From Zoogloeaceae bacterium (lineage in GTDB: Bacteria > Pseudomonadota > Gammaproteobacteria > Burkholderiales > Rhodocyclaceae), in assembly GCA_031287525.1 (NCBI GenBank), contig JAITSU010000028.1:1-41333 (forward strand): DNA of 41,333 bases, given 5' to 3'. The notes below the pieces were generated by a model, which had not been told where the DNA came from, ran no database searches, and was given only the letters and a program-made list of their open reading frames with translations. The translations under genes were made by a program, and so were the position numbers. This document shows positions 23,961 through 39,293 of the stretch, in pieces; position 1 is the stretch's first letter, and the number at the start of each line of letters is the position of its first letter.

Positions 23961-24867
23961 TTTTCGCCTCGACCAGGCGGCGGGGTTGAGACGTTTGTTC
24001 GATAGCCGCCGCCTGCGGATCGTCACCTTCGCGTCCGGCACGCCCGGCGTGGGCAAGACCACGCTGGTCGCCAATGTCGCTGTCGCGCTGGCGCGGCAAG
24101 GTCTGGAAGTGCTGGTGGTGGACGAAAACGGCGGCGCGCGACACATGGGCGCGTTTTTCGGCATCGCCCCAAGCGGCGATTTGTTGCAAGTTGTGAACCG
24201 CAAACTGAATCTGGAAGATGTATTGTTCAGCCCCGCGCCGGGCGTACAAGTCCTGCCCGCCGGACGCGCCGCCCGCCAACTGACCTGTCTCAACAACGCG
24301 CAACAACAGGCGATGCTGGACGGCATCAACGGTCTTACGCGCCCTGTGGATGTTATTTTGGTGGATAGTTCCCCTGACCACGCGCACGGGTTTTCCCCTT
24401 GGGGGCTGGCAGCGGGCGAAGCCGTGATGGTCGTTTCCGGCGCTGGCGCGTCCATTACCGACGCCTACGCGCTGATTAAAAAAGTCAGCCTCGCCTTGCA
24501 CCGGCGACATTTCCGCATTCTGGCAAACCGCGTCAAAAGCCCTGATGACGGACAGGTGATTTTCAAAAACCTGAAACAGGTCGCCGCCGAACGCGGCGTT
24601 GCCCACCTCGAATACGGCGGCGCAATCCCGCTCGACAACAGCCTGAAACAACTGGGACAACTCTGCCAACCCATCGTCGAAGCCCTGCCCGAAACCCCCG
24701 CCGCCCTTGCGCTACGAACTTTCGCCAACCACATGCTGACCTGGACAGCCGCCGAATACGAACATGGCGGCGTGGAACAGTTTATTGAGCAGTTATTGCA
24801 TTCGGAACAGGGGAGAGAATATCGGGCGGGGATGAAAGTGGCGGGAGCATCCTGCTCCCGTTCGTGA
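23953..24867 (+). CDS. flhG: MinD-like ATPase FlhG (FleN/YlxH)
   Basis: 304 residues, GTG start at 23953 with GGAG 6 bp upstream. FlhG limits flagellar number, acting with FlhF. The P-loop is SGTPGVGKTTLVANVAVALA. The signature lysine of the deviant Walker A motif (KGGVGKT) is replaced by Thr30, while Lys35 is kept. VVDENGGARH and ILVDSSPDHAHG fill the switch positions. The last codons (VAGASCSRS) are encoded by an intergenic palindrome beginning at 24838, so the natural C-terminus appears to have been replaced by repeat sequence. fliA, often next, is absent. Confidence 0.9.
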   Translation: MADFRLDQAAGLRRLFDSRRLRIVTFASGTPGVGKTTLVANVAVALARQGLEVLVVDENGGARHMGAFFGIAPSGDLLQVVNRKLNLEDVLFSPAPGVQVLPAGRAARQLTCLNNAQQQAMLDGINGLTRPVDVILVDSSPDHAHGFSPWGLAAGEAVMVVSGAGASITDAYALIKKVSLALHRRHFRILANRVKSPDDGQVIFKNLKQVAAERGVAHLEYGGAIPLDNSLKQLGQLCQPIVEALPETPAALALRTFANHMLTWTAAEYEHGGVEQFIEQLLHSEQGREYRAGMKVAGASCSRS

Positions 24868-24898
24868 ACGGCCTGCGAGAGCAGGATGCTCCCGCCAC
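24838..24898. repeat. inverted pair of GGGAGCA-TCC-TGCTCCC palindromes
   Basis: Two oppositely oriented copies of a short hairpin unit, GTGGCGGGAGCATCCTGCTC (from 24838) and its complement ending at 24898, separated by about 15 bp. Each unit is itself a hairpin with apical TCC. Single copies occur at 25061-25084 and 29501-29523. The left copy supplies the end of flhG. Confidence 0.85.
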
Positions 24899-24901
24899 TA
24901 T

Positions 24902-25059
24902 TAGCTTTCTGGGAACGCCGACGTCCACGTCGGCACGTCGGCGGTACGCCGACTTTGAGCGCAGATTGCCGCGCAAACACCGCTGCCAGCGTGGACGCTG
25001 GCGTTCCCAGGAAAACCTTCACTCAAAAAAACGCTCTGTGCAACTTTGTCAGCAGTCTG
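24902..25059 (-). repeat. MITE-like element, copy B (inverted, truncated at one end)
   Basis: Reverse complement of the element at 29319-29500. It holds a 98-bp core bounded by GGGAACGCC (24911-24919) and GGCGTTCCC (25000-25008), then about 35 bp shared with copy C, and the terminal repeat TTTGTCAGCAGTCTG (25045-25059). The other terminal repeat is missing: identity with copies A and C ends at 24902. Its second palindrome (GACG-TCCA-CGTC) is intact, whereas copies A and C carry a broken arm there. Confidence 0.85.
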
Positions 25060-25060
25060 T

Positions 25061-25084
25061 GCGGGAGCAGGATGCTCCCGCCAC
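25061..25084. repeat. GCGGGAGCA-type short palindrome
   Basis: A single copy of the hairpin GGGAGCA-TCC-TGCTCCC, 1 bp after the end of MITE copy B. The same unit also directly follows copy C at 29501, so the two are associated. Confidence 0.8.
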
Positions 25085-25175
25085 TTTTACAAATCACGCC
25101 TTACTGACCGCTCATCCTCTTGTCAAAGAGGCTGCTACCGTTCGTCGCCAAAATCATACCGCTCATCATAAACAC

Positions 25176-25204
25176 TTGCCTCAGACATAGCTTTTGCGCA
25201 TAAT
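25176..25204 (+). promoter_or_regulatory. candidate sigma-70 promoter of an intergenic RNA
   Basis: TTGCCT (25176-25181), a 17-bp spacer and CATAAT (25199-25204) give a reasonable sigma-70 promoter. There is no convincing gene behind it; the next signal is a terminator at 25374-25396. Confidence 0.45.
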
Positions 25205-38236: not shown

Positions 38237-38321
38237 GAGTGCAGGGAGAGCGAGGAAAAGCCGGGAATTATACCCGCTCGCCCGGATGCGCCCTAATCTG
38301 ACCGCTGTATGCGCCTACAAA

Positions 38322-38388
38322 AGGTAGGGCGGCATCGAAGAAACCGCCGTGGTTAACGTCCGGCGCGTTCGGAGAACGCGCCCTACCT
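38322..38388. repeat. 67-bp palindromic element, copy 2
   Basis: Reverse-oriented copy of the element at 33611-33677, same length and nearly identical, with differences mainly in the central loop. It lies between the 5' end of valS and the 3' end of dapB. Confidence 0.88.
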
Positions 38389-38399
38389 GAATCTGCCCT

Positions 38400-39209
38400 C
38401 TACCTGAACCCCAACACATCCTGCATATCAAACAGCCCGCTCTTCTGCCCGCTCAAAAAGCGCGCGGCGCGCAGGCTGCCCAAAGCGTAGGGCATACGGC
38501 TGCCGGACTTGTGGGAGATTTCCACCCGTTCGCCGATGCCGCAGAACATCACGGTGTGCTCGCCCACGATGTCGCCGCCGCGCACGGTGGAAAAGCCGAT
38601 GGTTTCTTTCCGGCGTTCGCCGGTGTGTCCCTCGCGCCCGTAAATCGCGCAGTCTTGCAGCGAGCGACCAAGCGCGTCGGCAACGACTTCGCCCATTCTG
38701 AGCGCGGTGCCGGAAGGCGCGTCGACTTTCATGCGGTGGTGGGCTTCGAGCACTTCCACGTCATAGCCCTGATTGAGAATACGCGCCGCCACGTCCAGGA
38801 GTTTGAAGACGGCGTTGACGCCAACCGCCATGTTGGGCGCGAAGACGATGGGAACACGTCTGGCGGCTTCGTCGATTTTCGCCTTGCCTGCCGCGTCGAA
38901 CCCCGTCGTGCCAATCACCATCGCCACGCCAGCGGCGGCGCAGCGTTCGAGGTGGACGAGCGTCCCTGCGGGGCGGGTAAAGTCAATCAGGCAATCGCAG
39001 CCCGCAAGACCTTTGGACAGGTCATCCTGCACACGCGCGCCGCAGGGCGGCAGACCGGCGAGTTCGGCGGCATCGCGCCCAAGGGCGTTGCTGCCCGGCT
39101 GGTCGAAGGCGGCGGCAAGCTGGAAATTTTCATCTTTCAGGACGGCTTCAATCAACATGCGCCCCATGCGACCGGAAGCGCCGACGATACCGATTCGGCT
39201 TTTTGACAT
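38400..39209 (-). CDS. dapB: 4-hydroxy-tetrahydrodipicolinate reductase DapB
   Basis: 269 residues. DapB reduces hydroxy-tetrahydrodipicolinate with NAD(P)H in lysine and meso-diaminopimelate synthesis, needed for peptidoglycan. The Rossmann motif is [14 protein letters not shown]. The catalytic region is [16 protein letters not shown], with the conserved histidines and lysine. ATG 39209 is chosen because AAAGGA lies upstream; the frame is open further, but there it is repeat sequence. It follows bamE on the same strand, but a palindromic repeat lies between them. Confidence 0.96.
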
Positions 39210-39225
39210 GCTTGTTTCCTTTGAT

Positions 39226-39287
39226 AGTGGGGGGAGCTTCCAGCTCCCCATCCATGTGCACAAGGGGAGCTGGAAGCTCCCCCCACT
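39226..39287. repeat. GGGAGCT-TCC-AGCTCCC palindrome pair
   Basis: Two inverted copies of a short hairpin (AGTGGGGGGAGCTTCCAGCT from 39226, its complement ending at 39287) with about 14 bp between. The layout matches 24838-24898, but the stem has changed in a compensated way. It separates bamE from dapB. Confidence 0.85.
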
Positions 39288-39293
39288 ATATAA

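Follow-up and report, generated by a model that had tools for sequence, protein, structure and literature searches.

What keeps the apex of a hairpin alike while its stem changes? The question is raised by contig JAITSU010000028.1, a 41,333-base stretch (the window) of the 2.75 Mb draft genome of a Zoogloeaceae bacterium, where a first-pass annotation described palindromes of a single design with a constant TCC apex and stem changes matched on the opposite arm. We found that the hairpins are repetitive extragenic palindromic (REP) elements, many of them in inverted pairs (REPINs), and that this one genome holds seven or more families of them. They are very probably non-autonomous repeats that REP-associated tyrosine transposases (RAYTs, or TnpA-REP), which act on single-strand DNA, recognise by tag, loop and intact stem and then move.

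All of the hairpins named in the annotation were found, within a few bases of where it had placed them except one: the hairpin "at 38322", GCGCGTTC-TCC-GAACGCGC, exists, but it lies at 38362-38382 on the minus strand; its bulged partner begins at 38324. Of the 21 window hairpins with a stem of at least 7 and a loop of 3-6, 12 have an apex that reads TCC or TCCA on one of the strands. In 441,333 bases, comprising the window and 20 stretches from five long contigs known to carry matches, 100 perfect hairpins with a stem of at least 8 and a loop of 3-4 were counted, compared with 25 altogether in a single run of a first-order Markov control. Since the apex was TCC/GGA in 25 of these 100 and the next triplet, GCA/TGC, reached only 12, TCC is enriched and frequent, where the annotation had allowed that it might be no commoner than other triplets; it is, however, neither constant nor universal, and other families carry TGC, TGT, TCA or CGCG.

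Each family is marked by an unpaired tag 5′ of its stem, which is GTAG or GTGG in families F1 to F5 and F7 and is instead GGGAAC in F6, the GGGAACGCC... hairpins. F1 (GTGG + CGGGAGCA-TCC-TGCTCCCG) matches GGGARCRTCCYGCTCCC 89 times in the genome (control 0), identically in 88 cases, and its 19-mer has 73 exact copies genome-wide (control 0); elsewhere in the genus this 19-mer is patchy, with 23 copies in genome G412, 2 in G417, 1 in G411 and none in 16 others. F1b is GTGG + GGGGAGCT-TCC-AGCTCCCC. F2 (GTAG + GGC NNNN TC-TCC-GA NNNN GCC) is represented by 171 genome matches to GTAGGG-7N-TCC-7N-CC (control 4), places being given for about the first 100. F3 (GTAG + GGGCGAAC-TGC or -TGT), F4 (GTAG + GGGC(A/G)GGTT-TCA) and F5 (GTAG + GGGCGGTT-CGCG, with tags frequently on both sides) jointly account, with a few others, for 232 matches (control 5), of which part were placed. 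F7 is GTAG + GGGCGACCG, and F6, which joins GGGAAC to GCCAGCG, GCCGACG or GCCAAGC and then TCCA, has 90 matches to GGGAACGCNNNNNTCC (control 5). These short palindromes are thus multi-copy in their own genome, and tagged hairpins number 229 in a 676,603-base sample that includes stretches picked for matches, compared with 46 in the same sequence reversed. The genome-wide and reversed-sequence controls rule out a chance origin.

The hairpins named in the annotation therefore do not share one design, as at least four families are among them (tags GTGG twice, GTAG and GGGAAC), and because the 5′ tags differ, stems of different families cannot be read as compensated versions of each other. The annotation's added remark that the set is broader than one REP family is borne out by several families with distinct tags and apexes. 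Nor are the AGCG and GACG hairpins compensated variants of a single hairpin: they are the two arms of one composite (F6AB) of 150-190 bp, copied many times, and all 11 of 11 adjacent F6AB pairs join AGCG with GACG. A single family with compensated stems is ruled out by the differing tags and by this composite.

We marked REPs with patterns for nine families across 1,303,505 bases, 47% of the genome and partly picked for matches, and compared them with open frames from a crude open reading frame (ORF) caller. Most are extragenic: non-ORF DNA makes up only about 13% of the sample but holds 305 of the 469 midpoints. Members of different families lie within 150 bp of one another in 159 pairs, compared with a mean of 21 under random placement; this is weakened when placement is restricted to non-ORF DNA, which gives a mean of 94 and a maximum of 121, and the clustering of different families is a moderate excess. 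Both ends of the window contig lie in REP material (1-90 and 41313-41333), and many REP matches of the draft fall within a few hundred bases of contig starts.

Compensated stem changes, which do not hold between families, hold within F2. F2 affords the best covariation test within the genome, because its search pattern leaves seven stem positions free. In the large sample, 99 of 122 F2 copies are fully paired, whereas shuffling the right arms among copies gave a mean of 26.9 and a maximum of 39. The fully paired stems are of eight types, four major (44, 22, 15 and 8 copies) and four rare (5, 2, 2 and 1), and 1 of the 122 copies is unrelated. When the apex was left free in the search, TCC was found in 120 of 155 F2 hairpins (GAA 25, GTA 4, others 6) and TCCA in 67 of 89 F6 hairpins (GCAA 20, others 2). 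The sister genome G411, of the same genus, has 178 F2 matches, which include additional paired stems, for instance GCTTTC/GAAAGC and ACGGCTC/GAGCCGT, and G401 has 26, those listed being of the GTAGGGGCGACCG or a near type; the other 17 genomes of the genus have 0 to 5, close to controls. We conclude that the matched stem changes in the GTAG...TCC family are real. Not every change is matched on the other arm, however: the F1 partner at 24876-24894 has one unpaired position.

Adjacent hairpins of a family are mostly arranged as REPINs with their tags outside, in 48 of 52 F2 pairs, 25 of 25 F4, 8 of 8 F1, 5 of 5 F6c (the GCCAAGC form) and 11 of 11 F6AB. Spacing from start to start is 38 bp in 36 F2 pairs and mostly 47 or 49 bp in F4.

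The annotation had proposed looking for a gene of the TnpA-REP type, and a search with the profile NF047646 (cut-off 80 bits) finds four places: contig C76 (85.3 bits; RAYT-A), C112 (57.8; RAYT-B), C101 (50.0; RAYT-C) and a fragment on C66 (24.1). Each of the four has its own REP family beside or inside it. RAYT-A (L022 1138-1929) has F6c hairpins on both sides, within its open frame, so that REP DNA codes both ends of the frame (ERQAPAW...AKLELG). RAYT-B has its own GTAG hairpin GGGCGGCT on both sides, the downstream one mismatched, and another in frame inside; RAYT-C has two F3 REPs in frame inside and one at its 3′ side; and the C66 fragment has its own hairpin once inside and once beside. 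The HuH and tyrosine motifs read MPNHVH and YIHENP in RAYT-A, MPNHIH and YIDNNP in RAYT-B and MPNHVH and YIETNP in RAYT-C, and the profile of the RAYT-A branch best matches the solved E. coli TnpA-REP 4er8 (E 1.5e-9). In the genus relative G411, two RAYT loci agree without a difference over 2,490 and 2,531 bases with loci of Zoogloeaceae bacterium Kf353_bin75, Zoogloeaceae belonging to Rhodocyclales. A plasmid search with RAYT-A gave 7 records, none covering 80%, and among phage protein families it matched only one of unknown function and one called transposase.

This arrangement resembles known REP/REPIN and RAYT systems, in the portions of PMC2817692 and PMC3116915 available to us, in its short tagged palindromes with many copies and inverted pairs, in a RAYT gene bordered by its own REP and in having several RAYT-REP pairs per genome; it differs in that at least seven families, one tagged GGGAAC, occur in one 2.75 Mb genome. 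RAYT-B and RAYT-C are like TnpA-Y1 subclass 2.4, as far as it is described in the available text of PMC6006769, in NHxH, WQ, YIxxNP and the in-frame REPs inside the gene that are reported for that subclass, as well as in a foot of GTAG with a GGG stem and in "double foot" REPs (F5); the assignment is by described features only. RAYT-A shares NHVH, W(Q/M) and Y---NP with class 2 of the same scheme. Subclass 2.6 and class 3 are described there as having atypical feet without GT[AG]G, CnGA in class 3, but unlike RAYT-A, class 3 has Y---Q, 2.7 is described as carrying GT[AG]G and 2.6 is mostly from Bacteroidetes. By tag, F1-F5 and F7 fit the GTAG/GTGG superfamily as the accessible part of PMC3733652 gives it. 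A CGTC, TGTC or CCTC tag, as in the CGTC superfamily, was not found among the families, whose tags are GTGG, GTAG and GGGAAC; F6 and most REPs of the GGAN branch of RAYT-A relatives described below fit the tag of neither superfamily.

We suggest that a RAYT, with its HuH motif and one catalytic tyrosine, would move REPs as single-strand DNA while reading three features: the unpaired 5′ tag (GTAG, GTGG or GGGARC), the loop of 3-4 nt at certain of its bases, and the intactness of the stem. Because the sequence of the stem would matter little, it could drift as long as a change in one arm came with the fitting change in the other, and a new subfamily could arise by amplification of a drifted hairpin that the enzyme still accepts. 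The coexistence of families would follow from the presence of several RAYTs with a hairpin apiece, and the GGGAAC family would go with a separate RAYT branch in which recognition of the tag has moved between GTAG and GGAR. The annotation's idea of a copying mechanism that keeps hairpin and apex rather than stem sequence is supported, and RAYTs are present. For group 3 REPs, the portion of PMC8266576 available reports that certain loop bases of two REPs with perfect stems cannot change, that stem mismatches harm cleavage while base swaps in the stem have a modest effect at most positions and that, in one of the two systems, positions of the GTAG choose the cleavage dinucleotide or site. If such reading rules applied to the RAYTs here, they would leave a kept apex and tag with stems drifting in matched pairs. 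Hairpin anatomy, copy numbers, the RAYT-REP linkage of some families, the matched stem changes and the tag difference between branches with its accompanying residues are observed; that the RAYT proteins here are active and that the shifted residues read the tag is inferred.

Several observations weigh against this reading. Three of the four RAYT matches fall under the cut-off, and no RAYT was found beside F1 (89 copies) or F2 (171), though the REP-rich contig ends may hide one. The apex varies, F3-F5 having apexes of their own and bulged F2 partners with a GAA apex existing; 164 of the 469 midpoints lie within open frames; and F1 is mostly unpaired, 16 of its 50 copies having a partner. Rare F2 variants more often show one-sided or unpaired changes (22 copies) than two-sided ones (10 copies).

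These last counts bear on a mutational alternative, in which a nascent strand switches template within the hairpin and rewrites one arm from the other. Such quasipalindrome correction leaves loops untouched, so that they look constant. The 10 two-sided F2 copies, which are of four low-copy types, would fit it, as would an unpaired intermediate, GGTATC/GAAACC, about 250 bp from the fully paired form on contig C16; but the correction cannot be efficient, because 22 rare copies keep their one-sided or unpaired changes, and it leaves tag conservation, apex preference, RAYT linkage and spread between species without account, making it an unlikely cause of the kept complementarity. A better case can be made that part of the stem diversity reflects two-endedness, the left and right hairpins of a REPIN having to be unlike, whether to be read differently by the enzyme or a partner or to avoid the long unstable cruciform that identical arms would form. 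Tags-outside pairs join unlike stems in 47 of 48 F2, 24 of 25 F4 and 11 of 11 F6AB cases, and the Y and Z REPs of E. coli likewise have different stems within a pair. F1 pairs, however, have the same stem in 8 of 8 cases and all 5 F6c pairs have one stem, and two-endedness gives no account of more than two stem types per family; we regard it as a serious possibility that falls short of being probable.

A role in RNA, as transcription terminators or stability elements, is very improbable as the explanation, even though most REP midpoints lie outside open frames and a terminator scan (hairpin, then T run) picks out the F2 copy at 33617 and, at 41313-41333 where the contig ends, the F2-like stem. 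No other REP is picked out in the window from 24000 to 41333, over which the scan was run, which rules out terminators as the principal reading. Terminator-like sites overall number 33 compared with 22.8 expected (sd 5.6), no Rfam family matches the window at gathering scores, which rules out known RNA families there, and dozens of near-identical copies, with sites inside transposase frames, point to mobility; an RNA role may have been acquired later by REPs. That the F6AB hairpins are instead the interior of a conventional miniature inverted-repeat transposable element moved by a DDE transposase is doubtful, though less so. These 150-190 bp units have imperfect inverted ends, CAGrCTGyTGACAAA, and 16 with both ends were found in the 1.30 Mb sample (14 by a stricter pattern). 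Against it, the flanks of the 14 units have no clear target duplication, no end pairs lie 400-6000 bp apart in the sample, and tag, stem length and loop agree with RAYT-A REPs. The stem of another REP family lies no more than 20 bases outside the F6AB ends in 40 of 59 cases, compared with 2% at random positions, and F6AB units seem to have settled within or next to REPINs that were there before, as though targeting them.

The preferred RAYT reading leads to the question of where the GGGAAC tag comes from. Relatives of RAYT-A were found in 160 of 399 genomes of the order. The best eleven of these loci (34-46% identical) carry GTAG or GTGG REPs in ten cases, for example GTAGC-GCCGGCA-TCCT-TGCCGGC, and a degenerate CATAGC in one. 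Among named genomes we took the best 80 of 478 relatives, from records named Kiritimatiellota, Chlorobiota, Verrucomicrobiota, Bacteroidota, Acidobacteriota, Planctomycetota, Chloroflexota, Armatimonadota, Thermodesulfobacteriota, Pseudomonadota and others. The GGGA-branch genes have C-Y-GGGARC-GC..NCC(N)..GC hairpins at their flanks, and the records concerned come from more than 10 phyla, while the sister branch carries GTAG; single phylum labels may be wrong, because most records are metagenome-assembled.

GGGARCGC followed by a hairpin with at least 6 of 7 pairs was found around 46 genes of these best 80. With pairing ignored, GGGA[AG]C lies within 300 bp of the aligned core at 64 of 84 loci (the 80 and four of the genus), and the nearest such site has at least 6 of 7 pairs in 34 of the 64 and 7 of 7 in 28, with 13 different stems. 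Full pairings numbered 20 with 4-base loops (shuffled arms: mean 2.1, maximum 7) and 8 with 3-base loops (mean 1.4, maximum 5), nine ties being left out. Compensated changes thus extend across species in REPs of the RAYT-A branch. A set of 21 distinct hairpins from both branches, in which pairing is 100% by choice, has a covariation score of 0.811 compared with 0.217 when shuffled; the score and the two-sided cells exceed the shuffles, but further pair types do not (246 of 500 shuffles reach the count). Proximity to the gene is not special for pairing, as GGGARCGC is followed by at least 6 of 7 pairs at 139 of 175 sites within 300 bp and at 54 of 82 farther off, the latter presumably being dispersed copies.

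When fully paired GGGA hairpins are weighted by locus and by stem, about 57 of 77 have CC as the second and third loop bases and about 35 a loop that starts with TCC; C-T or C-C precedes the tag in 65.7 of the weighted 77, compared with 269 of 1,336 unpaired GGGA sites, and this conserved dinucleotide may mark the point of cleavage. In 18 of 20 named genomes there are more matches to the GGGARC hairpin pattern than to its reversed control, with 3-103 matches across all 20; the exceptions are G419, whose apex lies outside the pattern, and G423. In G429, 4 of 27 matches are its own REP.

A quick maximum-likelihood tree of 101 rows has two sides: one (support 90) holds the ten GTAG rows and the degenerate one, the other (support 89) the 63 GGAN rows together with 21 whose tag is different or missing. 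A single change separates GTAG from GGAN on this tree, whose rooting is by long outgroup branches and whose supports are moderate; the tag classes lean towards GTAG and GGAN, because only hairpins resembling either were kept. The GGAN and GTAG branches differ at Q14 (62 of 63, compared with Y in 10 of 10), D/E8 (60 of 63; K/R in 10 of 10), Y144 (58 of 63; S in 9 of 10) and H154 (62 of 63; E/D in 10 of 10). Positions 144 and 154 are in or just past the stretch aligned with E. coli W94-R104, whereas 8 and 14 would lie in strand beta1 by our own reading of the alignment, because the 4er8 match begins only at profile position 64. Strand beta1 and the surroundings of beta4 are named as GTAG-contacting regions in the parts of PMC8266576 and PMC6006769 available. 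Across 66 loci, the residue at the E. coli Q95 position goes with tag base 5: Met accompanies an A tag at 24 of 32, and Gln only G at 20 of 23 (both at 1, other at 2; Fisher 3e-7). This link is weakened by independent tree pairs, of which 1.3 run the same way and 0.1 opposite (not significant), and further by position 62, which is equally strongly linked.

On this evidence we regard it as evenly balanced whether there is a third great REP class, tagged C-Y-GGGARC, with a dedicated RAYT branch in more than 10 phyla, whose tag read-out would have switched once (GTAG to GGAR or the reverse) through residues of the beta1 and beta4 regions, later GGAG/GGAA shifts going with Gln or Met at the Q95 position. 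Against the preferred RAYT reading, which includes the distinct GGGAAC branch, stand also the 21 of the best 80 named loci whose tag is outside GTAG/GGAN or missing, and the several named genomes with few GGGARC hairpins, so that "high copy" is met in only some genomes. About half of the ten branch-differing positions that passed the filter (36, 92, 93, 100 and 112) lie outside the expected regions, and with a single change on the tree, the tag-residue difference amounts to a correlation with ancestry.

Neither REPs and REPINs nor multiple RAYT-REP pairs nor in-frame REPs are new. Nowhere in the available portions of the REP/RAYT literature did we see a GGGA(A/G)C tag class described, supplementary tables aside, including that of PMC6006769, which lists atypical feet; GGGA does not occur in the main text of PMC6006769 as available, its supplementary REP table aside, and GGGAGC occurs once in the accessible part of PMC3116915, within a Pseudomonas palindrome core and not as a tag. 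The reading rules of a known enzyme class would account for compensated stems with a kept apex in nature and across many species, and the tag class and its RAYT branch offer candidate guide-recognition residues that are testable singly. According to the available part of PMC8266576, the logic by which a guide sets the cleavage site makes enzymes of the IS200/IS605 type re-targetable, and natural guide variants would therefore be useful. If the third class is real, it would show through a series of natural cases how the guide of a single-strand transposase can be re-targeted as the substrate stem drifts freely.

Table. REP elements and related palindromes in the window, with positions counted from its first base.
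Feature	Position	Strand	Remark
F1 REP, tag GTGG at 24838-24841, CGGGAGCA-TCC-TGCTCCCG	24838..24860	+	19-mer with 73 exact genome copies, control 0
Inverted partner of the 24838 F1 REP, tag CCAC at 24895-24898, stem unpaired at one position	24876..24898	-	by eye
F6AB REP, GGGAAC + GCCGACG-TCCA-CGTCGGC	24911..24934	+	
Inner palindrome of F6AB composite, GTCGGCG-GTA-CGCCGAC	24937..24953		
F6AB REP, GGGAAC + GCCAGCG-TCCA-CGCTGGC	24985..25008	-	second arm of the 24911 composite
F1 REP with GTGG tag	25062..25084	-	
F6AB unit, 182 bp	29319..29500		imperfect inverted ends CAGrCTGyTGACAAA
AGCG hairpin 29370-29393, inner palindrome 29425-29441, long-loop GACG arm with tag ending 29467	inside 29319..29500		parts of the F6AB unit
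F1 REP	29499..29524	-	adjoins the F6AB unit
F2 REP, GTAG + GGCGCGTTC-TCC-GAACGCGCC	33613..33637	+	
Bulged F2 partner, CTAC tag complement, GAA-type apex	33651..33675	-	stem mismatches; by eye
F6c REP, GGGAAC + GCCAAGC-TCCA-GCTTGGC	35354..35377	+	same hairpin flanks RAYT-A on C76
F6c REP	35401..35424	-	inverted partner of the 35354 REP
Bulged F2 partner, GTAG + GGCGGCATC-GAA-GAAACCGCC	38324..38348	+	stem mismatches; by eye
F2 REP, GTAG + GGCGCGTTC-TCC-GAACGCGCC	38362..38386	-	
F1b REP, GTGG + GGGGAGCT-TCC-AGCTCCCC	39227..39249	+	
F1b REP	39264..39286	-	inverted partner of the 39227 REP

Within the window, the F6c REPIN sits between convergent frames at 34041-35318 (+) and 35435-38236 (-), and the two F2 partner hairpins at 33651-33675 and 38324-38348 resemble bulged REPs. 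The GACG arm of F6AB comes in lengths that differ by repeats of ACGTCGGC, a unit of 8 bases (24937-24953 and 29425-29441; also L029, L032 and L040), and has in addition a short form without any hairpin, which resembles stepwise hairpin growth.

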